Source of the DNA: Chloroherpeton thalassium ATCC 35110
GTDB lineage: Bacteria > Bacteroidota > Chlorobiia > Chlorobiales > Chloroherpetonaceae
Reading direction: 5' to 3'
Assembly (NCBI RefSeq): GCF_000020525.1
Contig: NC_011026.1
Coordinates: 1,718,001 to 1,782,000, forward strand
DNA length: 64,000 nucleotides
The position numbers were made by a program, and so were the translations under genes. Under the pieces are notes generated by a model. It was not told the origin of the DNA, did not search any database, and saw only the letters and a list, made by a program, of their open reading frames with translations. Positions 4,367 to 28,013 of this stretch are shown in pieces; position 1 is the first letter of the stretch; the number at the start of each line of letters is the position of its first letter.

Positions 4367-7300
4367 ATGAAGTTACGGGTAATCGTTCAGCGGCTTTTCG
4401 TCGGTTTATTTTTTCTTTTGGCAGTGAGCTTCAGTCGAAGCGCGTCGGCGCAGCCCGAAGCCTATAACCACCCGGAACTGGAATGGCGAACCATCACAAC
4501 GCCACATTTCACGGTTAGCTACCACGAGGGCGCAGAGCGTTCGGCGCGCGTGGCTGCAAACATCGCCGAAGATGTTTATGGACCAATTACTTCGCTGTAT
4601 AATCACGACCCGGGCGTGGTTAATATCATTATCAAAGACACGGACGATTACTCCAACGGCGGCGCCTATTTTTTTGAGAATAAGATTGAAATTTGGGCGC
4701 CGGCGCTTGAATTTCCAATGCGTGGCCAGCACAATTGGTTGCGGAACGTCATCACGCACGAATACACCCATATCGTAACGCTCACCGCTGCCATGAAGTT
4801 TGGCACCACTTTTCCCGCCGGTTATTTGCAAATTTTTGGCTATGAGCAGGTTCGCCGCCCCGATGTGCTGTATGGATTTCCAAATGTGCTGGTTTCTTAT
4901 CCGGTTGCTGGCATTAGTTTTCCGTTTTGGCTGGCTGAAGGCGTTGCGCAATATCAGCGACCTGAATTTCGTTACGACACGTGGGATTCTCACCGCGACA
5001 TGATCCTTCGCGCGCTTGTCCTCGACGACAAGCTCTTCGATTTGCCCGCCCTCTCGAATTACGCCTCTAAAAAAGGCATCGAGTATGAATTTACTTACAA
5101 TTCCGGCTACGCGCTCACGCATTACCTTGCCGCCAAATACGGCGAAGACAAGCTGGACTCGCTTTGCAAAACACTGGCCGACCTCACCGTGCTGGATGCG
5201 AGCGACGCGCTCGAGATCGTTTATGAAAAACCGGCTGAGGCGATTTATCAAGAGTGGAAAAATGATTTGAAGCAAGATTATCTGGCGCGGACGCAAAAAG
5301 TGCGGGCGAATTTGCAGGAAGGCCGCGTGGTCGCAAAGGTCGGCTACTTGAACACCAATCCGTTGTTTTCTGCTGATGGCAAATCGCTATTTTATACGTC
5401 CAATCTTGGCGCGGACTTCAGCGCTCAGTCGCTTGTGATGAGCGATGTGGAAAAAGACTCCATTTTTTCCAAAACGACCGCATCTTCAAACGCGCTTCAT
5501 AAAACCACGCTCGCCGAATTGCCCGTCGATGTGCACGCCGGCGGAACTTGCAAAGTTTGCGGGCATCATTTTAGCCCAAATCGCGATGTGCTAAACGGCG
5601 GGGTTGGCTCGCGGCTTCAGCTTTCGGCGGATGGCAACACGCTGTTTTATTCGAAGTACACGGGCACTTCGTTTAAAATTCAGAAGTTCAACGACCTTTT
5701 TACGTTCGACCTTGAAAAGAAAGAAGAAACTCGCCTCACATATCAGCAGCGTTTGGAAACGCCGGTATTTTCTCCCGATGGAAAGCGCTTCGTTGCCCGA
5801 ACCGAAAAAGATGGAACGGCGAATTTGATAGAAGGCCTGTTCAGCGCCGATACGGCGGCGCAGCATTTGCAAAAACTGACGCAATACGAAAATGGCGAAC
5901 AGGTTTTTACACCGGTTTACAGCGCCGATGGTTCGCGGATTTTCTTTGCGCTTGGCGTTCGCAACCAACGACGCTTGATGCAGCTTGTCCGAAAAACTGG
6001 CGAAGTGAAGCCGCTCTTCGACGCCACCGAATCCCAAAATGCTGAGCTGCCCGTCGATGATCGCGATCCAGCGCTCAGCCCCGATGGGCATTTTCTTTAT
6101 TTCGCGAGCGATCGTTCAGGCATTTTCAATATTTATCGCTTGAATTTTGAAACCGGAAAAACCGAGCAATTGACAAATGTACTCGGCGGCGCGTTCATGC
6201 CGTCGGTGGATTCGGCAGGACATTTGGCCTATGCGACGTTTACTTCGGATGGCTACAAAATCGCCGTGATGAACGCGCCCAAACCGCTTGAACAGGCTGA
6301 TGCAAATTATGTGGCCAGAAATCCCGTTCGGCCTTTCGGCGAACCGCAGCATCGCCTGAGCCCGAGCACGGAGACTTTGCCAAGCGAGCCCGCTTTGCCG
6401 CTGATGGCGGATCGCTCGGAACCGCAGCGACTTTCGCGCTACGACGACACAGCGCTAAAAGAGTATCCCGAAAAAGAATACGAGATGATTTTTTCCTCGC
6501 CGCTCGTTATGCCGATTGTTCGCTTCGACGCGTATGCGAAATCGCAAGGCAGTTTTTTGAAAGATGCGTGGCGTGCGGCAAAGTTTGGCGCGGCGGTTTT
6601 TTCGCAAGAAGCGTTGGGAAAGCTGAGCATCGGTGGCGCGCTGACAATCGCGCCCGGCTCAAGTGTTTCAGGCGGTGCTTCGGGTGTTGCGGGGCTTTTT
6701 GAACTCGAGCGCGACGCCTTTCTCTCGCTGGAATACAGCGACCAGAACATTTTGCCTGCAGCGATGCTTCCAAAACTGACGCTCGATATTTATCACCAAA
6801 CGCGCAACGTGGAGAACGCTGGCACATTCAAAGAAGGCATCGATAGCACCACATTCAATGTTTTTTACAAACTCACCGAGTATGATCTGTCATTGGATTT
6901 TCGCGTTCCGATGGAGCATTGGTTGTTTCAGGCCAGCCAGTTTCGCCTAACGGGCATTTATAGCACGTATTCTTCCAAAATCGGCGCGTTTTTTTGGGAG
7001 CCACTTGGCCAAACCGTTACGGCGTCTTCGGACGATTATTTTATCGGAAAAGCCGTTTCGTTTTTGTGGAAAATGGATTTGCGAGCACGAACAGCCGATC
7101 GTGCGATTAACCCAATTGGGTTTCGATCCGCGATTCGCTTCGATTACGAAAGCAGCAAATTGCAAGATGATGTGGAACTGACAGACGCCGGCACGGTAAT
7201 TCCGGCGTATAAAACCTACAATATTCCGCGTCTCACCGCCGATTTGCATTTCAACCTGCCAATGCCGATTCGCAAGCACACCTTCAACGTGCGTTCTTAC

Positions 7301-7810
7301 TCAGCGCTGAATTTCACAGGCGGCAACACGGATTTCTTTTTTCACAATTTCATTTCCGGCTTGCTCGGCATGAGAGGCTATGAATATTACGCCATTGGCG
7401 GCGAGAAGGCCACGTTCTTGCATGCTGAATACCGTTTCCCGCTTGTCGAAAACATCAATGTGCAGTTCTTGCAATTCTATTTCGATAAAGTTTATCTCTC
7501 CGGCTACTTTGATATGGGCGCAGCGTGGTCGGTGGGTGGAATGCCAAGCGTGGAAAATTGGCGCAAAGATGTTGGCCTGGAACTTCGCTTGGAAGCGCCG
7601 TCGTATTATGTGTTCCCAACGCGCGTTTTCTTAAGCGCAACCTACGGTTTGGATAAGTTCAAGGTCGCGCTGCAAGATGAATTCTACACCAATGACGGTC
7701 GCGATTATGTCACTTACGGCGGTAGTTGGATGATTCACTTCGGAATGCTTTTTGAATTTGATCTATTGCTCGATGCGGCGAAACACAGTTTCCGAAGCAT
7801 CCTATATTAG
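4367..7810 (+). CDS. Exported zinc-peptidase / TolB-like propeller / Omp85-type barrel fusion protein
   Basis: A 1147-residue protein beginning with a signal peptide (about 1-28, ending SASA). Residues 40-300 form a gluzincin-like (peptidase MA type) domain with HEYTH at 131-135 and a downstream glutamate in FWLAEG (E191), the expected zinc ligands and base. Residues about 320-640 contain repeated LSADGNTLFYS/FSPDGKRF-type units of a TolB/PD40 beta-propeller. A CKVCGHH cluster at 395-401 interrupts the propeller and could bind a metal. The last 400 residues are beta-rich and carry the LLGMRGY segment of Omp85-family (bacterial surface antigen) barrels, ending in an aromatic residue. It is probably an outer-membrane protein with periplasmic peptidase and propeller domains. 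Substrate unknown. Confidence 0.8.
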   Translation: MKLRVIVQRLFVGLFFLLAVSFSRSASAQPEAYNHPELEWRTITTPHFTVSYHEGAERSARVAANIAEDVYGPITSLYNHDPGVVNIIIKDTDDYSNGGAYFFENKIEIWAPALEFPMRGQHNWLRNVITHEYTHIVTLTAAMKFGTTFPAGYLQIFGYEQVRRPDVLYGFPNVLVSYPVAGISFPFWLAEGVAQYQRPEFRYDTWDSHRDMILRALVLDDKLFDLPALSNYASKKGIEYEFTYNSGYALTHYLAAKYGEDKLDSLCKTLADLTVLDASDALEIVYEKPAEAIYQEWKNDLKQDYLARTQKVRANLQEGRVVAKVGYLNTNPLFSADGKSLFYTSNLGADFSAQSLVMSDVEKDSIFSKTTASSNALHKTTLAELPVDVHAGGTCKVCGHHFSPNRDVLNGGVGSRLQLSADGNTLFYSKYTGTSFKIQKFNDLFTFDLEKKEETRLTYQQRLETPVFSPDGKRFVARTEKDGTANLIEGLFSADTAAQHLQKLTQYENGEQVFTPVYSADGSRIFFALGVRNQRRLMQLVRKTGEVKPLFDATESQNAELPVDDRDPALSPDGHFLYFASDRSGIFNIYRLNFETGKTEQLTNVLGGAFMPSVDSAGHLAYATFTSDGYKIAVMNAPKPLEQADANYVARNPVRPFGEPQHRLSPSTETLPSEPALPLMADRSEPQRLSRYDDTALKEYPEKEYEMIFSSPLVMPIVRFDAYAKSQGSFLKDAWRAAKFGAAVFSQEALGKLSIGGALTIAPGSSVSGGASGVAGLFELERDAFLSLEYSDQNILPAAMLPKLTLDIYHQTRNVENAGTFKEGIDSTTFNVFYKLTEYDLSLDFRVPMEHWLFQASQFRLTGIYSTYSSKIGAFFWEPLGQTVTASSDDYFIGKAVSFLWKMDLRARTADRAINPIGFRSAIRFDYESSKLQDDVELTDAGTVIPAYKTYNIPRLTADLHFNLPMPIRKHTFNVRSYSALNFTGGNTDFFFHNFISGLLGMRGYEYYAIGGEKATFLHAEYRFPLVENINVQFLQFYFDKVYLSGYFDMGAAWSVGGMPSVENWRKDVGLELRLEAPSYYVFPTRVFLSATYGLDKFKVALQDEFYTNDGRDYVTYGGSWMIHFGMLFEFDLLLDAAKHSFRSILY

Positions 7811-8167
7811 TTTTCATCGCCATTGCCGGATTTCGTGGCCGGATTTATTCCAAAAATCGAAATCCGGTTTCCCGCTAAGCCGCTCTGAAACGGCCTCGAA
7901 ACGCAAAAACCCTAATAATTTCTTTTAATTAATAAGGGTATTTTTTACCTTATTAGATGTTTCTTTGATGTGGTTCTTTTGTCAAAATTTAAAAGGCAAA
8001 ATCAGCAGGTGGCAAAAAGTGTCTCTTGTTGATTTTTTTATTTTGGTCAAAACATCACTTTATGAATCGAAAGAAAAAAAATAGTTGGGAAGAGCGTATC
8101 GCGTTCCGAAGAATGCGGTGTCCATAGCGCTTATGTCTTTTTTAACCATCAGTAAGATTCGCTAAGG
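7811..8167. other. Intergenic region with weak hairpins upstream of speDE
   Basis: No gene seen. An imperfect hairpin at 7930-7955 (TAATAAGG and CCTTATTA arms with one bulged G) lies about 120 nt after the preceding stop. A second weak stem joins AAAATCA (7998-8004) to TGATTTT (8030-8036) and is followed by a T-run to 8039. Either could end transcription of the barrel protein gene or sit in the leader of the polyamine gene. Confidence 0.4.
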
Positions 8168-9484
8168 ATGTCAGGAAAATCGCTGGGAAAGCACATTTTA
8201 GTTGAATTTTACGACTGCACACCGGAAGTGCTCGATGATGTGATTCATATTGAGCGTTCCATGGTGAAAGCAGCCGAAATCGCCAATGCCACGATTATCA
8301 ACACCGGGTTTCATCATTTCTCACCCTATGGCGTTTCCGGTGTCGTCGTTATTCAAGAAAGTCATTTAACCATTCACACTTGGCCTGAGTACGGTTATGC
8401 CTCGGTGGATATTTTTTCGTGCGGAGATACGGTTGATCCGTGGGCAGCTTACACTTCGCTAAAAGAAGCGCTTGGCGCAAAAAGCGGTTCAACAATGGAA
8501 CTGCGGCGCGGCCAGGAAAAACTGCTGAACAAGCAATACAACATTCCAGTTTTTGGTGAGGAAACGCCTCAGCGCGAAATGCAATACTCGCCGCAATATG
8601 CCAGAAATATTTGGTTCACTGAAAAAGGTCACAACATTGCGCTTTCGTTGCGCCACACCGGCGATTTGCTTTATCGCAAGCGCTCGCCTTATCAGCGTGT
8701 TGAGATCTATGACACCTTCGCTTACGGCAAAATGCTCACCATCGACGGGCTGGTGATGTGTACCGAAAAAGATGAATATGTTTATCATGAGATGATTTCG
8801 CATGTGCCAATGCTCACGCATCCCAACCCAAAGCGTGTGTTGGTGATTGGCGGCGGCGACGGCGGAACGATTCGCGAGATTTTGCGTCACGAATCGCTTG
8901 AAGAAGTTGTCATGGTCGAAATTGACGGCGCTGTGGTCGAAGCTTGCCGCGAATTTTTACCGGCGATCGCCTCAGAATTTGAGAATCCCAAGCTCGACTT
9001 GCGCATCGAAGATGGCGTGAAGTATGTCATGGAATCGCCGGATAAATCATTCGATATTGTCATCGTGGATTCGTCCGACCCGGTTGGGCCAAACGAAGGG
9101 CTTTTTACGGAGGAATTTTACCGCAATGCGTATCGTATTTTGGCCGACGATGGCATCATGGTGACGCAGAGCGAGTCGCCAAGAATGAATGTGAGAACGT
9201 TCAAAGAGCTGTTCCATCTCTATAAAAAGATTTTCGGCATGGAAAATGTCTTTTGTTACTTGGCGTTCATTCCAACCTACACCTCCGGTATGTGGAGCTT
9301 TTCCTATTCAACCAAATGCAGCGCTCATCCTTTGAAAAACCTCGATCGTGAGCGTGCCGCTGAATTCAGCCGCGAGCAGCACTTGAAATATTATAACGAG
9401 GGTGTGCATCAAGGCGCTTTTGCTCTGCCGAATTTTGTCGTTGAGCTTTTGGAAGAAGACATCACGGTGGAACATACGTTATAG
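8168..9484 (+). CDS. speD-speE: Fused S-adenosylmethionine decarboxylase - spermidine synthase
   Basis: A 438-residue polypeptide joining two consecutive spermidine-pathway enzymes. Residues 1-115 are a SpeD/SpeH-type AdoMet decarboxylase. The self-cleavage site is E64-S65 ([17 protein letters not shown]), S65 would become the pyruvoyl group, and H70 and C85 match the processing and catalytic residues. Residues about 145-435 are a spermidine synthase: Y/F-rich N-terminal strands, the GGGDGG AdoMet loop (228-233), the acidic VEID strand (250-253) and the DSSDPVGP catalytic loop. Fusion would pass decarboxylated AdoMet directly to putrescine aminopropylation. No linker stop or frameshift is visible. 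It is monocistronic, followed by a strong terminator. Confidence 0.95.
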
Positions 9485-9536
9485 CGCGTGGGCGTCGTTC
9501 ATACGAACGTCTTCATGTCAGCAGAAAATGAAATGG

Positions 9537-9566
9537 CTCCGGCTCAGGTCGGAGTTTTTTTTTTTC
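9537..9566 (+). terminator. Intrinsic terminator after speDE
   Basis: CTCCG (9537-9541) pairs with CGGAG (9550-9554) around an 8-nt loop, followed by a run of 12 T. It lies about 50 nt after the speDE stop. Confidence 0.85.
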
Positions 9567-9740
9567 TTGCAAAACGGACTTTTAGTTTGGGCGTTGTAGC
9601 CGTTTGCAGCGCCTTCAAGTTTGGTTTGAACTGGCTATATTGAGCGACAAGCGCTTTGCGACTCATCAAAATCGTTTCGGACAGCTTTAGTCAACGCGAT
9701 GCAAAACGCGCATTCATTTTTTAACCAAATCCTTGTTCGT

Positions 9741-10463
9741 ATGGCAGATATTATCGATTACAAATTGTTTGGCGACGATATGCAGATCGTCGAAGTTGAG
9801 CTCGATCCGCAAGAAGGCGTTCGTGCTGAAGTTGGCGCGATGCTCTACATGGAAGATGGCATTCAGATGCAAACAGACACCGGCGGCGGCTTGTTCAGCG
9901 GATTTAAACGCATGCTCACAGGCGAAAGCTTTTTCATCACCTCCTTTGTCAATCAAGGGCATGGAAAACAGCGTGTGGCTTTTGCCGCGCCGTATCCGGG
10001 AAAAATTGTTCCGCTTGATCTTGGCCAGCTTGGCGGCGAATTTCTTTGTCAAAAAGATGGCTTTCTTTGCTGTGCCAATGGCGTCGATATCAATGTGGCT
10101 TTTACTCGGCGGATTGGATCGGGACTTTTTGGCGGCGAAGGATTTATTTTGCAGCGCTTAACTGGCGACGGTTTAGCATTTATTCATGCGGGCGGCACGA
10201 TTATCAAGCGCGAGCTGCAAGCCGGCGAGTCGCTGCGTGTCGATACAGGCTGCTTGGTGGCGCTTGCTCCCTCTGTTGATTACGATATAAATTTTGTGGG
10301 CGGATTTAAAAATGCGCTATTTGGCGGCGAAGGGCTTTTCTTGGCAAAACTCACCGGGCCTGGAACGGTCTATTTGCAGAGCTTGCCATTCTCGAGAATT
10401 GCCGATCGAATTTTGGCGTCGTTGCCATCGGGTGGTCACAGCCATTTTGGCGACGAAGATTAA
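9741..10463 (+). CDS. AIM24 / TIGR00266 family protein
   Basis: A 240-residue protein of the AIM24 (formerly DUF124) family, a beta-rich, trimer-like fold with no established enzymatic activity in bacteria. Typical features are the start [21 protein letters not shown] and several glycine-rich GGGLFSG / GSGLFGGEG / [10 protein letters not shown] turns between repeated strands. There is no signal peptide or membrane helix. An upstream in-frame ATG at 9699 would add 14 residues, but homologues usually begin at the ATG used here. It stands alone, between the speDE terminator and a strong palindrome that separates it from the convergent bcp gene. Confidence 0.85.
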
Positions 10464-10472
10464 CCGGTTTGT

Positions 10473-10504
10473 CAGTAGAGACGAGGTCGCCCTTGTCTCT
10501 ACTG
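10473..10504. repeat. 32-nt near-perfect palindrome (14-bp stem, tetraloop)
   Basis: CAGTAGAGAC (10473-10482) pairs perfectly with GTCTCTACTG (10495-10504). The inner GAGG/CCTT adds four more pairs (one G-T), leaving the loop TCGC at 10487-10490. It lies between the convergent AIM24 and bcp genes. There is no U-tract on either strand, so it is not a classic intrinsic terminator. It looks like a REP/MITE-type extragenic palindrome or a factor-dependent bidirectional stop. Confidence 0.65.
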
Positions 10505-10624
10505 CAGAAGGCTTTGTGTCATGGCAGCCAAGCACAATGTGCGCGCAAAAGCAGCGTTATTTTTCCTGGCAAAAAACATGAAGATTGCTGCGGGGTAAAA
10601 GAAACCTCGTGACGGAAGCAAGGG

Positions 10625-11086
10625 CTACTGCAAATCCGCTAAGATTTCTTGCGCATGGGTTTCCGGTTTTACTTTCGGATAAACCTTCTCAATTTTTCCG
10701 TTTTCGTCGATAAGGTAGGTCACGCGATTGGTGCCCATGTATTCCTTGCCCATGAATTTTTTTAGTCCCCAAACTTTATAATCCTGCACAATTTTTTTCT
10801 CCGTATCAACCAAAAGGCGAAATGGCAACTCGTATTTTTCCGCGAACTTCTTGTGCTTTTTCTCATCATCGACGCTCACGCCAAGTACCACCACCTGTAA
10901 TGTTTCAAACTCAGGAAATCGATCGCGAAAGGCGCAGGCTTCTTTCGTGCAGCCTGGTGTGCTGTCTTTTGGATAAAAGTAGAGCACCACTTTTTGTCCT
11001 CTGAGCGCTTCCAGCCGAACTGGGTTGCCGTCTTGATCGATGGTGTCAAATAAAGGCGCTTCCGATCCGACTTCTAATAAATCCAT
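10625..11086 (-). CDS. bcp: Thioredoxin-dependent thiol peroxidase (Bcp/PrxQ)
   Basis: A 153-residue atypical 2-Cys peroxiredoxin reducing hydrogen peroxide and organic hydroperoxides in the cytosol, recycled by thioredoxin. The active site is STPGCTKEACAFRD with the peroxidatic Cys46 and a resolving Cys51 five residues later, diagnostic of the PrxQ/Bcp class. The thioredoxin fold is complete and of normal length. An AAGGAG Shine-Dalgarno precedes the ATG. It starts only 38 nt after the ABC permease gene in the same direction, so it may be the last gene of that operon. Confidence 0.95.
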   Translation of the reverse strand: MDLLEVGSEAPLFDTIDQDGNPVRLEALRGQKVVLYFYPKDSTPGCTKEACAFRDRFPEFETLQVVVLGVSVDDEKKHKKFAEKYELPFRLLVDTEKKIVQDYKVWGLKKFMGKEYMGTNRVTYLIDENGKIEKVYPKVKPETHAQEILADLQ

Positions 11087-11124
11087 GATGTTCTCCTTTT
11101 AAGTTTTCGTTTGGGTGTTTCTGG

Positions 11125-11922
11125 TTATAAATCTCTGGATTTAAAGCTGTAAAACGCAGCGCCGTTAATGGCGGCAATATAGATCAACGCGAAAGTCCAG
11201 GCGAATAAGGTTGAAAGCTTTCCCGCATCTGTGGACTGAAAGACTTCATTTGCTGCAAAGCGCGACGCATCGATGAGCGTGTCGAATACATTGGTTGGCA
11301 AATACATGGGAATTTGCGCGGTAGCCTCTTTTAAGGACAAAAGCGGAGCGGCGATGGTTTCAAGGAAAAGGTAGAGCAAATAAAACACCAATGCGTTTGC
11401 CGTGTTTTGCGCTAAAAATGAAAAAAATAAGGCAAGCGTGCCATAGCCAATCAGGAGCACGAAATACGAAGTAAAAAGATTGATCTCGAGTAGGCGAATG
11501 GCATTATGGGAAACCGCTTGTTTGAAGGATGCCACAGCCAGCCCCAACCCGATGAACAGGAGCAAATAAACGGCGGAAATAAAAAAAACTAAAATCAGTT
11601 TGGAGAGAAAATAATCTTCGCGGGTAAGCCCATCGATGATGTTTTGCCGAGCGGTTCTATTGGCAAACTCATCGGATGAAAGCAAAATAATAGTTACGGG
11701 CAAGTAAATAATGCTGAATAGCTTAAACTGGCCAAGCACGCTCATCCAATCGTTGGGGAGCGAAAACCCTTGATAAATCTCGCTATTAACCGAAAACGAA
11801 CCTTGCGAGATGATCCACAAAAAGATGGCGCCAAAAAAAGCATAAAACCCAACAGTGACCCAAAAAGCTTTGCGTTTCTGGACTTTGATCAGCTCGATGA
11901 GAAACAGTTCTTTAATATTCAT
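11125..11922 (-). CDS. ABC-2 type transporter permease
   Basis: A 265-residue inner-membrane protein with about six hydrophobic helices (about 20-38, 66-84, 105-130, 142-168, 180-197 and 235-257), matching the ABC-2 permease pattern of two-component exporters and of the NatB/BcrB-like group. It follows the ATPase gene by 15 nt and ends 38 nt before bcp. The substrate is not deducible; related pairs export antibiotics, sodium or lipids. Confidence 0.85.
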   Translation of the reverse strand: MNIKELFLIELIKVQKRKAFWVTVGFYAFFGAIFLWIISQGSFSVNSEIYQGFSLPNDWMSVLGQFKLFSIIYLPVTIILLSSDEFANRTARQNIIDGLTREDYFLSKLILVFFISAVYLLLFIGLGLAVASFKQAVSHNAIRLLEINLFTSYFVLLIGYGTLALFFSFLAQNTANALVFYLLYLFLETIAAPLLSLKEATAQIPMYLPTNVFDTLIDASRFAANEVFQSTDAGKLSTLFAWTFALIYIAAINGAAFYSFKSRDL

Positions 11923-22027: not shown

Positions 22028-22879
22028 ATGCAACATGATCTCCTTGCCATGCCAAAAAAAAACAGGCAGTCCAGAACTACTCGCGATAGTATTAGTTTGC
22101 AGAGCGCCCTCTGTTTTCAGAAAGATGACAATGTATTTCTTGGGCACGACCGAATTGCGCTTCTTGAGAAAATCCAGGAACTGGGTTCGATTAGTCAAGC
22201 GGCAAAAGCCGTTGGTATTAGCTATAAAACCGCGTGGCATTTAGTCGACATGATGAACAACTTGGCCGAAAAGCCCCTTGTCGAACGAACCACCGGTGGA
22301 AAAGGCGGTGGCGGCACCATTCTAACGGAAGACGGCCAGCGCGCTATTTCCCAATTTCATATCATTGCTGAAGAGCATCAAAAATTTCTGCATAATCTCG
22401 AAGATAGACTTGGGGACACCCATAACCTTTATCAATTTTTAAGGAGAATCTCAATGAAAATTAGTGCTCGCAACGTCCTGAATGGCACCGTTTCAGCTAT
22501 CATTAAGGGAGCTGTGAACTCGGAAATCATCCTATCCGTTGGGGAAAAAACGAAGATTGTTTCCATTATCACCAATGGAGCGGTTGAAAATCTTGGCTTG
22601 AAGGAAGGCATGAATGCGTATGCCATCATCAAGTCCAGTTCTGTGATTATTGGAACGGATTTAGAAGGGGCGAAAATTAGCAGCCGCAATATTTTATGTG
22701 GCACCATTGCGAAAGTCATTGAGGGCGCTGTCAATACGGAAGTGGACTTGAAAACAACTGACGGTAATGTTATTTCTGCTATTGTCACCCATGAAAGCGC
22801 CAAAACGCTTGGCTTGAAAGAAGGCGGGCAAGCTTGTGCCTTTTTCAAAGCGTCGAGTGTGATTCTTGGCGTCATTTAA
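22028..22879 (+). CDS. modE: ModE-family molybdate-responsive transcriptional regulator
   Basis: A 283-residue regulator with the full ModE architecture. A LysR-like winged helix-turn-helix spans about 25-125 (FLGHDRIALLEKIQELGSIS, then AAKAVGISYKTAWHLVDMMN). Two tandem Mop (TOBE/molybdate-binding) domains follow at about 144-209 and 216-283, both beginning ISARNVLNGTV or ISSRNILCGTI. In this family, molybdate-loaded dimers bind palindromic boxes and control molybdenum uptake and use. A near-perfect box is found 2.1 kb downstream, before the TonB-dependent receptor. The gene ends at its own terminator. The ATG at 22028 has a weak ribosome binding site; the ATG at 22049 is an alternative. Confidence 0.93.
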   Translation: MQHDLLAMPKKNRQSRTTRDSISLQSALCFQKDDNVFLGHDRIALLEKIQELGSISQAAKAVGISYKTAWHLVDMMNNLAEKPLVERTTGGKGGGGTILTEDGQRAISQFHIIAEEHQKFLHNLEDRLGDTHNLYQFLRRISMKISARNVLNGTVSAIIKGAVNSEIILSVGEKTKIVSIITNGAVENLGLKEGMNAYAIIKSSSVIIGTDLEGAKISSRNILCGTIAKVIEGAVNTEVDLKTTDGNVISAIVTHESAKTLGLKEGGQACAFFKASSVILGVI

Positions 22880-23168: not shown

Positions 23169-24689
23169 ATGTGGTTTAAAATAAATGAGCAGGCGAGCCA
23201 AAGAGTGAAAAACGTCACGCTGCTGCTTACAGCTATTATGACGATGTTAGAACTTGCATTTTTAAGTAGCTTTCCGCATTCAAGCGAGTCGCGCTTCTAC
23301 GTGATCATCGCCAAACTGCTGACCATCCTGTTTCTTTTTTATGGCATCTATATGGTGCAGCAAATTCAAGTGACCCTAAAAACATACTTAACCCTCTGGG
23401 GCGGCCTGCAGCTTTTACTAATAGGCGCTTGGGTTGATTTGCTCGAAGAGCTGGTTATCACCAATTATTGGTACGTGGAACTGTGTGAACATTATGGAAT
23501 GACACTTGGCGTGTTTAGTATCAGCTTGGGGCTTTTTTTCTGGTATAAGGAAAATAATAATGAAAACAAGTTGCGCTACGAGCTCGCAACGGGCGCTGGA
23601 AAAGTAGGCGTTTGGGATTGGAATTTAGAGACCAACGAGTTTTATGTCGATCCGCATTTAAAGGGCATGCTGGGATATGAAGATCACGAGATTCCCAATA
23701 TTGTGGATAAATGGAGCGAATTGGTGCATCCTGAAGATCGTGAGCAAATGGTGTCTAAAACGCTAATTCATCTTCGTGGTGGTACGCAGCACTACGAAGT
23801 TGTGCGTCGCATGATCCACAAAAATGGCACAATTCGTTGGTTTTTGACCAGAGGCACGGCGCTTTACAATGATCAAGGAAAGCCGTTTCGCATCGTCGGT
23901 ACAGATACAGACATTAGCGATCGCCAAAAGTTGGAGCATCAACTTTTGCAATCGCAAAAAATGGAAGCGCTTGGCCGGCTCACAGGTGGGGTTGCCCACG
24001 ATTTTAATAATTTACTCGCGGTGATTAAAGGCTCAGCAGAACTGCTCGAAATAAAGCTAAGCGATACGCCGAGCTTGGTGAAACAAGCCAAACGGATAAA
24101 AATTTCCGCTGTGCGAGGTTCCGAATTGACGAACAAATTGCTGGGTTTTTCGCGCCACAAGCAAAAGCAGCGCGGGATTGTTGACATTAATCGGTGTGTT
24201 GAAACGGCCATCGGCCTCATAGAAAGTACCATTGACAAGCGGATTGTGGTGAAAACGGATTTATGCACGGAGAGTCCAAAAGTGGATGGTGTTGAAAATG
24301 AATTGGAGTTGGTGTTTATCAACATGGCAATCAACGCCTGCGACGCGATGATTCCTACATTTGAGAAAGTTTCCGAAGGCCGGCTTTGTTTCCGAACGCG
24401 GTTAGAAAACATCACCAACGACTTGGCTGAGCAGCACGAACTGGATGCCGAATTGCCCTATGTGCGTATTTCCATTGCCGACACGGGCATTGGCATCGCG
24501 GAAGATATTCAGCAAGAGATTTTCGAACCGTTTTTCACCACAAAAGAAAGTGAGAAAGGCACTGGACTGGGACTTTCGATGGCCTATGGCGCGGTTAAAA
24601 GTCACAGCGGCGCCATTACGCTGGAAAGTTCCTTGGGCTATGGCACAACCTTTCACATTTTTCTGCCTGTAAAACAAGTCGAAGAATAA
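23169..24689 (+). CDS. Membrane-bound PAS-domain sensor histidine kinase (orphan)
   Basis: A 506-residue sensor kinase. About four membrane helices (about 13-35, 42-65, 72-92 and 105-126) lead into a PAS_3-type fold (about 135-255), a HisKA dimerisation domain with the phospho-acceptor His277 in GGVAHDFNN, and an HATPase domain with the N box (near N386), the G1 box DTGIGI (438-443) and the G2 box GTGLGLS (464-470). There is no receiver or HPt domain and no response regulator gene within the window. The gene lies between modE and the ModE-box receptor gene on the same strand. Signal and target are unknown; a role in molybdenum sensing is only suggested by position. Confidence 0.9.
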   Translation: MWFKINEQASQRVKNVTLLLTAIMTMLELAFLSSFPHSSESRFYVIIAKLLTILFLFYGIYMVQQIQVTLKTYLTLWGGLQLLLIGAWVDLLEELVITNYWYVELCEHYGMTLGVFSISLGLFFWYKENNNENKLRYELATGAGKVGVWDWNLETNEFYVDPHLKGMLGYEDHEIPNIVDKWSELVHPEDREQMVSKTLIHLRGGTQHYEVVRRMIHKNGTIRWFLTRGTALYNDQGKPFRIVGTDTDISDRQKLEHQLLQSQKMEALGRLTGGVAHDFNNLLAVIKGSAELLEIKLSDTPSLVKQAKRIKISAVRGSELTNKLLGFSRHKQKQRGIVDINRCVETAIGLIESTIDKRIVVKTDLCTESPKVDGVENELELVFINMAINACDAMIPTFEKVSEGRLCFRTRLENITNDLAEQHELDAELPYVRISIADTGIGIAEDIQQEIFEPFFTTKESEKGTGLGLSMAYGAVKSHSGAITLESSLGYGTTFHIFLPVKQVEE

Positions 24690-24937: not shown

Positions 24938-24973
24938 AAAAAAAAGAAACAGTCTCGCGCTGTTTCTTTTTTT
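24938..24973. terminator. Bidirectional-looking intrinsic terminator or attenuator
   Basis: A8 (24938-24945), GAAACAG (24946-24952), a 7-nt loop, CTGTTTC (24960-24966) and T7 (24967-24973) form one perfect hairpin with T-runs on both strands. It is 249 nt after the kinase stop and only 42-54 nt before the receptor start. It either insulates the receptor gene or, if its promoter lies upstream, attenuates it. Confidence 0.75.
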
Positions 24974-24981
24974 AGTCCTAA

Positions 24982-25005
24982 CGATATATATTAAAGTATA
25001 TAACG
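24982..25005. promoter_or_regulatory. Predicted ModE operator (ModE box)
   Basis: CGATATATA (24982-24990), six spacer bases, then TATATAACG (24997-25005). This has the published ModE element architecture (CG-n-TATATA, N6, TATATA-n-CG), known from proteobacteria and green sulfur bacteria; the arms are complementary at 8 of 9 positions. The box ends 10-22 bases before the two possible receptor start codons, so bound ModE would cover the promoter or leader. A ModE gene lies 2.1 kb upstream. Confidence 0.8.
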
Positions 25006-25026
25006 AATGTGTAAATGCTTAAAAAC

Positions 25027-27264
25027 ATGAAAAAACTATTACTCTGCATTTTGGTAGGTTCTCTTTTCTTGGGAGAAATGAACGCGCAGGAAGTTGCGAC
25101 AATGGATGGCCAAGTCCCTGATAGCCTTTTGAAAACTTTCACAATGGAAGAAATCACGGTGACGGGCGCGCGCGGCTCGATGCTTCAGCAAGTTTCTGAA
25201 GATGATGTGCGGATGCTCAATCCGTCTCAGCTGTCGATTTATAAAGTGATCAACATGCTGCCCTCGTTGCACCAGCAAAGTGTGGATCCATATGGATTGG
25301 CTGATATTAGCAATTATCACGAATCGTTTCGTTTTCGTGGCGTTGAAGCCACATCGGGCGGTGTGCCGGCAACAACCGCCAATGTGGAAGAATTGCCAAT
25401 AACCGGGCGACCTGGCGGTGGCGCTTCGATTTACGACTTAGAGAACTTCGAAAATCTTACCATTTACACGGGCGGGATTCCTGCTAACAAAGGCCACGGC
25501 CTGGCGAATGTCGGTGGAAAAATCGACATGCAAGTGCAGCGTCCAGGAGACGGGCTTGATCTTCAACTCAAGCAAGATATGGGCAGTTCTGATTGGTATC
25601 GGAAATCTTATGTGCGCGTTAGCTCTGGAGATTTGCCGCTGGGCGTAGGCAGTTTTCTTTCCTATTCAAATACATTTATGGACAAGTGGAAAGGCGACGG
25701 CAGCTCGACTCGCAACAACGCCATGTTTGGTTTAACGAAAGACTTCAAAGATAAGCTAAAAGTGGAAGCCTTCGCGCTTTACAATAAATCTAAAATTCAT
25801 ACCTATCGGTCGCTGTCTTATGACCAGATTAGCAATCTTTCGGAAAATTACGAGTTGGATTTTTCTAACGATCCGAACGATCTGTATTACTACGATTACA
25901 ACCGCAACGAATTTGAAGATTGGCAATTTTTTGCAAATATCGAATTCAAACCGACAGCGTCATCCACGCTAAGCCTCAAGCCATATTACTGGAGCGACGA
26001 GGGCTACTACATGGAAACCGTTACGCTCAGCACCGGCGCAAATATGGTGCGTCGTTGGGATATTGAGCACGATGTAAAAGGTGTGCTGGCTCAATATAAA
26101 TACTCGCTATTTGGGGCCGACTTCGACGCCGGTTATCTATATCACACGCAAGAGCGCCCGGGCCCGCCAACTTCTTGGAAACTTTACGCGGTTCAAAATG
26201 GCGAGCTGGTTTTTAAAAAATGGGCGGTTCTTTCAAACAAATCGAATCACGAGATGCACTCGCCATATTTGGCAACCAAATATCGTTGGGGAAATGTGCT
26301 GGTTGAAGGCGGGTTGAAATATATCTATTATAAACTGCCTCAGCTCATTACCTACAAAACAATGGGTATTGGCGATGTGAGCTACGAAGATGCGCTGGCC
26401 ACAAATCCTGAAATCGAAGATTCGGCCAGCACGTCTGGATCGAAAATTGAAAAAGGACTTTTCCCGAACTTGAGCCTCAGTTATTTATTAAAATCCAACC
26501 TAACGGCGCATGTTTCATACGGAAAAAATTATGTCTATCATGTAGATATTTATCCGTACTTCAATTCGCAAAAGTCCAAGTTTTATAGCAAAGGCATCAC
26601 CTTTCAGCAAATTTGGGACAAAAAAGAAATGGAAGTCTCGCACAACTTTGAGCTTGGCTTGCGCTACATTGCCCAAAATTGGCGAATTGATCCGGTCATC
26701 TACTTTTCCATTCATAAAAACAAACAGGCCATATTTTATGACGAAGAGTTGGATGCCACTTATCCGCAAAACGCAGCAGATGCCAACGGTTATGGCTTTG
26801 AAGTTGAGGCTGAAGCCACGCCAACCAGCGCAATCAAATGTTACGCGTCATTTTCCTTTAACCGATTCTACTTTTCGGAAAATATTTATAACTCCTCCGG
26901 CGATCTCATCGACGTGGAGGGCAATCAAGTGCCCGACGCACCTAAATTTTTGCTAAAAGGTTTTGTCAGCTACACCATCTCAAAGTTCTCGTTCTCGCCC
27001 ATTTTGCGCTACACGTCCGAGCGATACGGCGACATTGCGCATGAGGAAAAAATCGATGGCGCGGCAACGGTCGATCTCGACATCACCTATCGCGATCAAA
27101 TTTTCGGACTTAAGAATCTCGGCGTTTCGCTCACCTTCATGAACATCTTTGACAAAGAATATGTGAGCCTGATCAACACGTCAGATTATAAAACCTTAGG
27201 ATCATCGTCTTATCAAGTTGGCGCGCCATTTACGGTTGTTGCGTCCATCTCGCTTGATTATTAA
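25027..27264 (+). CDS. TonB-dependent outer-membrane receptor, probably molybdate/Mo-chelate related
   Basis: About 745 residues from ATG 25027 (an ATG at 25015 adds four). The signal peptide ends MNAQ. A TonB-box-like TMEEITVTGAR follows at about 40-50, then a plug domain (SIYKVINMLPSLHQQ, FRFRGVEATSGG, ITGRPGGGASIYDLE) and a barrel of about 550 residues ending in SISLDY with a terminal aromatic residue. Such receptors import metal chelates or cofactors with energy from TonB-ExbBD. No substrate can be read from the protein itself. The ModE box directly upstream suggests control by molybdate. There is no CarboxypepD_reg N-terminal extension and no SusD partner. Confidence 0.9.
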   Translation: MKKLLLCILVGSLFLGEMNAQEVATMDGQVPDSLLKTFTMEEITVTGARGSMLQQVSEDDVRMLNPSQLSIYKVINMLPSLHQQSVDPYGLADISNYHESFRFRGVEATSGGVPATTANVEELPITGRPGGGASIYDLENFENLTIYTGGIPANKGHGLANVGGKIDMQVQRPGDGLDLQLKQDMGSSDWYRKSYVRVSSGDLPLGVGSFLSYSNTFMDKWKGDGSSTRNNAMFGLTKDFKDKLKVEAFALYNKSKIHTYRSLSYDQISNLSENYELDFSNDPNDLYYYDYNRNEFEDWQFFANIEFKPTASSTLSLKPYYWSDEGYYMETVTLSTGANMVRRWDIEHDVKGVLAQYKYSLFGADFDAGYLYHTQERPGPPTSWKLYAVQNGELVFKKWAVLSNKSNHEMHSPYLATKYRWGNVLVEGGLKYIYYKLPQLITYKTMGIGDVSYEDALATNPEIEDSASTSGSKIEKGLFPNLSLSYLLKSNLTAHVSYGKNYVYHVDIYPYFNSQKSKFYSKGITFQQIWDKKEMEVSHNFELGLRYIAQNWRIDPVIYFSIHKNKQAIFYDEELDATYPQNAADANGYGFEVEAEATPTSAIKCYASFSFNRFYFSENIYNSSGDLIDVEGNQVPDAPKFLLKGFVSYTISKFSFSPILRYTSERYGDIAHEEKIDGAATVDLDITYRDQIFGLKNLGVSLTFMNIFDKEYVSLINTSDYKTLGSSSYQVGAPFTVVASISLDY

Positions 27265-27372: not shown

Positions 27373-27644
27373 AAAAGGAACGGCGTAAAAAACTCATTGA
27401 AAAAAGTGCTGATTTGGTTAAAAACGTGCTCGCAATGAAAAGAACTGATTGCGCATCCAAATTGTGAACGCCTCTTTGAACAACGCATTCCGAAAGGTGA
27501 TGCAGGCTTTGCGTAGCCCAACAAAATTTGGGTTTTCTTACGTAAGAAGAAAAAGTTTGTTATTTTTCGCCCTGTTTTTCACTCAAAGTGAAAGTTCTAC
27601 AAGATTTTCAATTCAGTTTATTTTTTGACATGATAGGACTTAAT
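27373..27644. other. Intergenic region between receptor terminator and GroES-like gene
   Basis: No gene or clear structure. One short open frame on the minus strand has neither a ribosome binding site nor a recognisable product. The promoter of the GroES-like gene should be here, but I cannot point to it. Confidence 0.4.
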
Positions 27645-28013
27645 ATGCCAACCAACTCGGTTGACAAGTTTGTGATTGTTGGTGATAGGGTGTTGATCCG
27701 TCCAAAATCAAGCACAGAGCGCACAAAATCAGGATTGTATTTGCCGCCGAATGTTCAGGAGAAAGAAAAAGTTCAAAGTGGCTACGTGATTAAAACAGGA
27801 CCAGGCTATGCAGTGGCGCCGCCTCAAGATCCTGATGAGCCTTGGAAAGAAACTACAAAGCAGCCGCAATATATTCCACTTCAAGCGGCGGTGGGCGACT
27901 TGGCGATTTATTTACTGAATCATGCTCACGAAATAGAATATGAAGACATTAAATACATGATTGTGCCGCAATCGGCTATTTTGCTGCTGATTCGCGAAAA
28001 CGATGATATTTAA
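27645..28013 (+). CDS. Divergent GroES/Cpn10-family co-chaperonin
   Basis: A 122-residue protein with a Cpn10-like start (VDKFVIVGDRVLIRPKSS, then TKSGLYLPPNVQEKEKVQSGYVIKTGPG), the GroES mobile-loop region with the Leu-Tyr-Leu-Pro element in place of the usual IVLP. It is about 25 residues longer than canonical GroES because of a proline-rich insertion (about 63-80), and its C-terminal part (YEDIKYMIVPQSAILLLI) matches the family's end. AGGA at good spacing supports the ATG at 27645; a GTG at 27588 is possible. No groEL is next to it, so it is probably a second, specialised copy. Confidence 0.8.
   Translation: MPTNSVDKFVIVGDRVLIRPKSSTERTKSGLYLPPNVQEKEKVQSGYVIKTGPGYAVAPPQDPDEPWKETTKQPQYIPLQAAVGDLAIYLLNHAHEIEYEDIKYMIVPQSAILLLIRENDDI

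Follow-up and report, generated by a model that had tools for sequence, protein, structure and literature searches.

A divergent TonB-dependent receptor behind a ModE box is a strong candidate for a dedicated molybdenum importer of green sulfur bacteria

Within a 64,000-nucleotide stretch of the Chloroherpeton thalassium genome (hereafter, the window), a predicted ModE operator directly precedes the gene for a divergent TonB-dependent outer-membrane receptor, which we term TBDR1 (25027..27264, plus strand; alternative start 25015). Homology and genomic context mark TBDR1 as a candidate importer of a molybdenum species and, in green sulfur bacteria more widely, make it a strong candidate for an importer dedicated to molybdenum in sulfide-rich water, where this metal is difficult to obtain. 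We regard it as probable that TBDR1 is a ModE-repressed, TonB-driven importer of a Mo species, perhaps a chelate or thiomolybdate. Regulation by ModE and linkage to Mo are well supported by the sequences compared here, from which we also infer transport and ligand.

The putative TBDR1 operator (CGATATATA-TTAAAG-TATATAACG, 24982..25005, assigned to neither strand) was defined by pattern match and matrix score. Its sequence, CGATATATATTAAAGTATATAACG, agrees with the palindrome CGnTATATA-N6-TATATAnCG (CGNTATATA-N6-TATATANCG) with 0 mismatches; the published ModE consensus reads ATCGNTATATA-[N6]-TATATANCGAT (PMC545781). An earlier note on this DNA had described a near-perfect ModE box 10-22 bases before the receptor start. 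The match proved to be exact and the spacing figure right, with 9 nt separating the end of the box from a start at 25015 and 21 nt from a start at 25027. In a pattern scan of the whole window, this was the sole match with fewer than three mismatches, and a matrix derived from 17 sites at genes other than TBDR1 scored it at 27.0 bits. A hairpin with a T run (AAAAAAGAAACAG-tctcgcg-CTGTTTCTTTTTT, 24940..24972, plus strand), read directly from the letters, is the probable terminator of the upstream kinase gene, although its absence from a consensus terminator scan makes it weak evidence. The hairpin probably separates TBDR1 from transcription of modE and the kinase. Because the box falls between this probable terminator and the start codon, ModE would be expected to bind there, cover the promoter/start region, and act in the direction of repression.

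The same note had placed a complete ModE with two Mop domains 2.1 kb upstream on the same strand, and profile matches bear this out. The modE gene (22049..22879, plus strand; alternative start 22028) encodes a molybdate-responsive regulator with an N-terminal HTH and two Mop (TOBE) domains, matching TIGR00637 at 107 bits (cut-off 98.5) and both TIGR00638 and PF03459 twice; it ends 2.1 kb before the receptor. Between the two genes, a domain search identified a PAS histidine kinase (23169..24689, plus strand), which lies outside the conserved TBDR1 neighborhood of relatives. Autoregulation of modE in the window was considered and rejected, the matrix giving no site near 22028. Downstream of TBDR1, an ORF at 27588-28013 looks by eye like a divergent GroES/Cpn10 protein and is unrelated to the receptor finding.

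The receptor ORF (25015-27264) encodes 749 amino acids, and ortholog alignment prefers the ATG at 25027. A Pfam search of TBDR1 itself returned no match, as the Plug and barrel models miss this divergent sequence; its identity as a TonB-dependent receptor, as first proposed, is upheld by less direct routes. A 31%-identical homolog from a proteobacterial bin (locus L121) scores above the cut-off for both Plug and TonB_dep_Rec, a profile of 18 TBDR1 orthologs matches FoxA/CntO and FhuA, and hhalign gives 98.4% for TBDR1 against TBDR2/TBDR3, two further receptors described below, over most of the length. The AlphaFold2 model, made from three input sequences, is poor (pLDDT 44) and was for that reason used for fold class only; with this low-confidence model, the top 50 Foldseek matches listed were all TonB-dependent receptors. 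As a possible signal peptide and TonB box, the N-terminal segment MKKLLLCILVGSLFLG... and the segment FTMEEITVTG were picked out by eye in TBDR1 and are aligned in its orthologs. The Plug and C-terminal barrel architecture is thus predicted for TBDR1 through its homologs. At the L121 locus (5692-11716), the distant homolog is followed by FmdE, FecCD, ATPase, and Peripla_BP_2 genes, an arrangement that suggests a wider group of Mo or W receptors.

ModE boxes across the genome (3,293,456 bases, single contig) were sought by pattern rather than by matrix. Four sites have at most one mismatch (reversed-pattern control, 0). Seven more appear at three mismatches, against 24 control sites at up to three mismatches; these looser sites are at chance level, and with one before TBDR2 set aside, at least five of the remaining six lie inside or overlap unrelated ORFs. 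The earlier note had asked whether equally good boxes occur at random positions. Good boxes turned out to be few, and all four with at most one mismatch belong to promoters that serve either Mo-related genes or TonB receptors. Site 1 (window position 24982) precedes TBDR1. Site 2 (genome position 2172558) lies between anfO and an SBP_bac_6 gene, the latter followed by a NifA/AnfA-type activator gene, and downstream of an Fe-only nitrogenase cluster (AnfD, 1107 bits with a cut-off of 874; AnfG; AnfK). Site 3 (genome 1130957) precedes a tetrapyrrole-methylase (cobA-like) gene and then TBDR2, before which a separate, weaker box lies at genome position 1131810. Genes for a FecCD permease, an ATPase, a methyltransferase, Peripla_BP_2, SBP_bac_6, a CobW/HypB-like protein, and an ABC protein follow TBDR2. 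Site 4 (genome 2706661) precedes TBDR3 and a cytochrome c. Pfam Plug detects 26 receptors genome-wide (the divergent TBDR1 not counted); against that background, a distribution in which two boxes immediately precede receptor genes and another precedes an operon containing one is highly non-random. The TBDR1 box appears to be part of a regulon that also includes TBDR2 and TBDR3. The mop-modCAB operon of this genome has a weak box only (12.7 bits), and a Mo nitrogenase is also encoded (nifD, 688 bits).

That the TBDR1 box might be a functionless AT-rich palindrome arisen by chance is exceedingly improbable. The box core is TA-rich and its surrounding region AT-rich; however, shuffled windows yield 0.06 matches at up to three mismatches, whereas the observed box has no mismatches. 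The scarcity of comparable sites in the genome, their absence from the control, and the recurrence of boxes before orthologs speak in the same direction, and the genome scan and its controls rule out a chance box for practical purposes.

Among 60 Chlorobiales relatives, 15 boxes with at most one mismatch were found, compared with 1 for the control, and their neighbors include TBDR1, TBDR2, cobA-TBDR3, modA, anfA, anfH, and Porin_5 genes. TBDR1 orthologs (50-59% identity) occur in 20 of the 60, and ModE is present in all 20 (Fisher p=0.001, a statistic inflated by shared ancestry). In most of these 20, nifDKENB-fdx immediately precedes TBDR1 and modE, modA, or modAB comes next, usually with one or two ModE boxes present. 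The gene orders are nifD-K-E-N-B-fdx-TBDR1-modE(-modA), TBDR1-modE-moaA-MOSC, or TBDR1-modA-modB(-modE-moaA). Synteny in other Chlorobi, which the earlier note had put forward as a check, therefore favors its reading, with nif-TBDR1-modE, -modA, or -modAB clusters and ModE boxes in most of the promoters. The TBDR1 gene of the window genome has no nif or mod gene beside it, and only modE is near, at 2.1 kb. Across the 21 TBDR1 genomes, nifDK-like genes are universal (21/21) and anf genes are found in only four. These neighborhoods point to a genomic association of TBDR1 with Mo uptake or use. At E≤1e-60, no TBDR1 was detected outside Chlorobiales among 394 Bacteroidota genomes, and a search of named genomes returned two loci only, the closest named match being an uncultured Chlorobiaceae bacterium.

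The TBDR1-free matrix, applied with a threshold of 10 bits to 640 kb of relatives' loci, found 101 sites above 10 bits versus 10 in reversed sequence; as these loci were picked around receptor genes, the comparison describes site placement and not a genome-wide rate. Sites of at least 10 bits lie upstream of 14 of 19 TBDR1, 14 of 16 TBDR2, and 7 of 11 TBDR3 genes, as well as of cobA-like (7/7), modA (7/13), and anfA (2/2) genes. Only 9 of 220 other genes have such a site, and several of these have a divergent promoter in common with a regulon gene. A further four TBDR1 genes (L123, L126, L131, and L138) follow a cytochrome-c-like ORF with boxes in the promoter region. Boxes at TBDR1 often come in pairs spaced by roughly 65-90 bp. 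The ortholog of one relative (G018, locus L139) has no upstream box, although it stands before modA-modB.

Several other boxed loci were observed alongside the receptor. The box that precedes the SBP_bac_6 gene and the gene for the AnfA-type activator of the Fe-only nitrogenase is at L013:9559-12432, and the same SBP family is present in the TBDR2 island. This ModE-boxed cobA-like/TBDR2 island (L012:9958-19462) recurs with TBDR3 in several Chlorobaculum-like relatives (L150-L152, L156, and L157) and is likely a second low-Mo metallophore system. In two relatives (L024:1551-2684 and L025), a near-perfect ModE box stands before the gene for an outer-membrane protein of the Porin_5 family, possibly a molybdate porin. 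ModE boxes were also seen before a gene for a 282-residue protein, identified as NadC/ModD-like by eye only (L158:1036-1381, L159:972-1313, and L026). Near TBDR2/TBDR3, a small secreted Oxidored_molyb (PF00174) protein is encoded at many loci (L142-L149, L151-L153, L155, and L157) and could be a periplasmic binder of Mo or Moco.

The ModAs linked to TBDR1 score above the TIGR01256 family cut-off, and the conserved Ser/Ser/Ala/Val/Tyr pocket is missing from most of those encoded next to the receptor. We take the E. coli ModA equivalents of this pocket to be S12, S39, A125, V152, and Y170, a numbering confirmed on the sequence. These altered pockets read G/M/Y/V/N in cluster c20 and G/A/A/M/H, G/A/A/I/H, or G/S/A/V/H in Chlorobaculum-like genomes; the canonical S/S/A/V/Y pocket occurs in 46 other ModA entries, a few of which are the same gene entered twice. 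A variant ModA is present in 17 of the 21 TBDR1 genomes but in 1 of 40 others (p=1.8e-10, inflated by shared ancestry), and its co-occurrence with TBDR1 within the family plus the window genome gives p=9.7e-9. For these counts, the ModA of G022, a broken gene, was scored as variant from its surviving part, and that of G028 was scored from a partial match. The c20 ModAs are 22-23% identical to other ModAs, while the Chlorobaculum type is 45% identical to canonical ModA. As the two types are separate lineages, similar pocket changes arose at least twice alongside TBDR1. The window genome carries a c20-type modA-modB pair ~61 kb away. Its main ModA, from the mop-modC-modA-modB operon (L019:4750-5535), also has a non-canonical pocket (N/S/Y/V/P). 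In A. baumannii ModA, molybdate is held by the backbone NH groups of two Ser and two Val residues and by a Tyr hydroxyl (PMC11734730). Since most hydrogen bonds to molybdate thus come from backbone NH, an altered pocket alone is no proof of another ligand.

We propose that, when molybdate is plentiful, dimeric ModE-Mo would sit on the box immediately before the start codon, blocking transcription. At low molybdate, ModE would leave the box and TBDR1 would be expressed, along with a low-Mo regulon that would comprise TBDR2, TBDR3, a FecBCD-type ABC system, and the activator of the Fe-only nitrogenase. Drawing on TonB energy, TBDR1 would carry a scarce or oversized Mo species (a Mo chelate or thiomolybdate) into the periplasm, presumably raising periplasmic Mo in sulfidic water, and the TBDR1-linked ModA would hand this species to ModB(C) to supply the synthesis of FeMo-cofactor and Moco. 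The ligand of TBDR1 is not readable from sequence; a thiomolybdate or chelate would be consistent with the altered ModA as well as with a requirement for an active receptor. TBDR1 is not the sole route for Mo, given that molybdate fits through porins and that a canonical ModA is kept in most TBDR1 genomes. The further idea that TBDR1 and the remodelled ModA form a dedicated envelope pathway for non-oxyanion Mo, either thiomolybdate or a sulfide-resistant Mo chelate, is tentative, and we consider it possible but on balance doubtful.

Other ligands would be compatible with control by ModE. TBDR1 could be an iron-siderophore receptor switched on during Mo shortage, when falling back on the Fe-only nitrogenase requires more iron. 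The anfO/anfA region is among the regulon members, the siderophore receptors FoxA and FhuA are the closest solved relatives of TBDR1 by profile, and in Azotobacter without Mo, VnfA1 activates three TonB siderophore receptors (PMC9542535). The stable neighbors of TBDR1, however, are modE, modA, modB, moaA, and the nif cluster of the Mo nitrogenase rather than iron genes, which renders a siderophore ligand unlikely. Iron supply for the Fe-only nitrogenase is disfavored as a general role of TBDR1, as 17 of 21 TBDR1 genomes are without anf. We give still less credence to import of a complex of tungstate, vanadate, or another oxyanion. ModE and ModA separate Mo from W poorly, which would let a single regulon handle either, ModA binds both molybdate and tungstate (PMC11734730), and the TBDR1-linked pockets are unlike the canonical one; yet the constant neighbor is the Mo nitrogenase (nif), a common neighbor is moaA, and an unsystematic look at TBDR1 loci turned up neither vnf nor W-enzyme genes. 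A cofactor-like or pterin ligand (Moco, molybdopterin, or a tetrapyrrole) in place of a metal, again under ModE control, seems very unlikely. TBDR2 is followed in many relatives by the small secreted Oxidored_molyb-domain protein and is preceded in some by a tetrapyrrole-methylase-like gene, but these features belong to TBDR2/TBDR3, whereas the partners of TBDR1 are ModA, ModB, and ModE. Import of a Mo species is the reading we prefer for TBDR1.

In sulfidic water, molybdate is converted to particle-reactive thiomolybdate, the bioavailability of which is described as almost unknown, and yet-unknown uptake mechanisms have been proposed for sulfidic pore water (PMC3440940). Mo nitrogenase nevertheless works in a sulfidic lake with Mo <10 nM, where green sulfur bacteria carry nif genes (PMC8346585). 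For the acquisition of nitrogenase Mo in such water, our analysis points to specific candidate genes for a receptor, to an operator, and to a binding protein to match. If the proposed pathway of TBDR1 and remodelled ModA is correct, it would explain how the Mo nitrogenase of green sulfur bacteria is supplied in euxinic water, and molybdenum would join the substrates of TonB receptors as a new class under direct control of ModE. It would also bear on the possible operation of Mo nitrogenase in sulfidic Proterozoic seas.

ModE elements in green sulfur bacteria are reportedly, to judge by its title, the subject of a study by Studholme and Pau from 2003, which may already list some of these sites. 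Among the open papers searched, none was found to report TonB receptors directly under ModE or a TonB-dependent Mo importer, although such absence is weak evidence. TBDR1 resembles the TonB siderophore receptors FoxA, FhuA, and FecA in predicted fold and C-terminal barrel profile but is too divergent for the Pfam Plug and barrel models, and its context is Mo, not Fe. Within the ModA family (TIGR01256), TBDR1-linked members replace E. coli S12, S39, and Y170 by G, A/M, and H/N, with one subgroup keeping S39. The E. coli ModE-molybdate/modABC system shares its regulator architecture (an HTH and two Mop domains) and its operator with the system described here. With the green sulfur matrix, the E. 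coli modA box (CGTTATATTGTCGCCTACATAACG) reaches 24.4 bits; it lies 20 nt before modA, a known repressed promoter, close to the 21 nt at TBDR1. The E. coli target is an inner-membrane ABC transporter, whereas the target here is an outer-membrane TonB receptor. ModE-Mo represses modABC and the activators of alternative nitrogenases, and in the low-Mo response of Azotobacter vinelandii, ModE1/2 act on vnfA1 and anfA (PMC9542535). The green sulfur regulon is similar in having ModE sites at alternative nitrogenase activators, and TonB receptors and ABC systems, predicted here to rise at low Mo, are upregulated without Mo in Azotobacter. The Azotobacter receptors, however, are driven indirectly by VnfA1, whereas the green sulfur boxes lie directly at receptor promoters, and mostly in genomes without an Fe-only nitrogenase.
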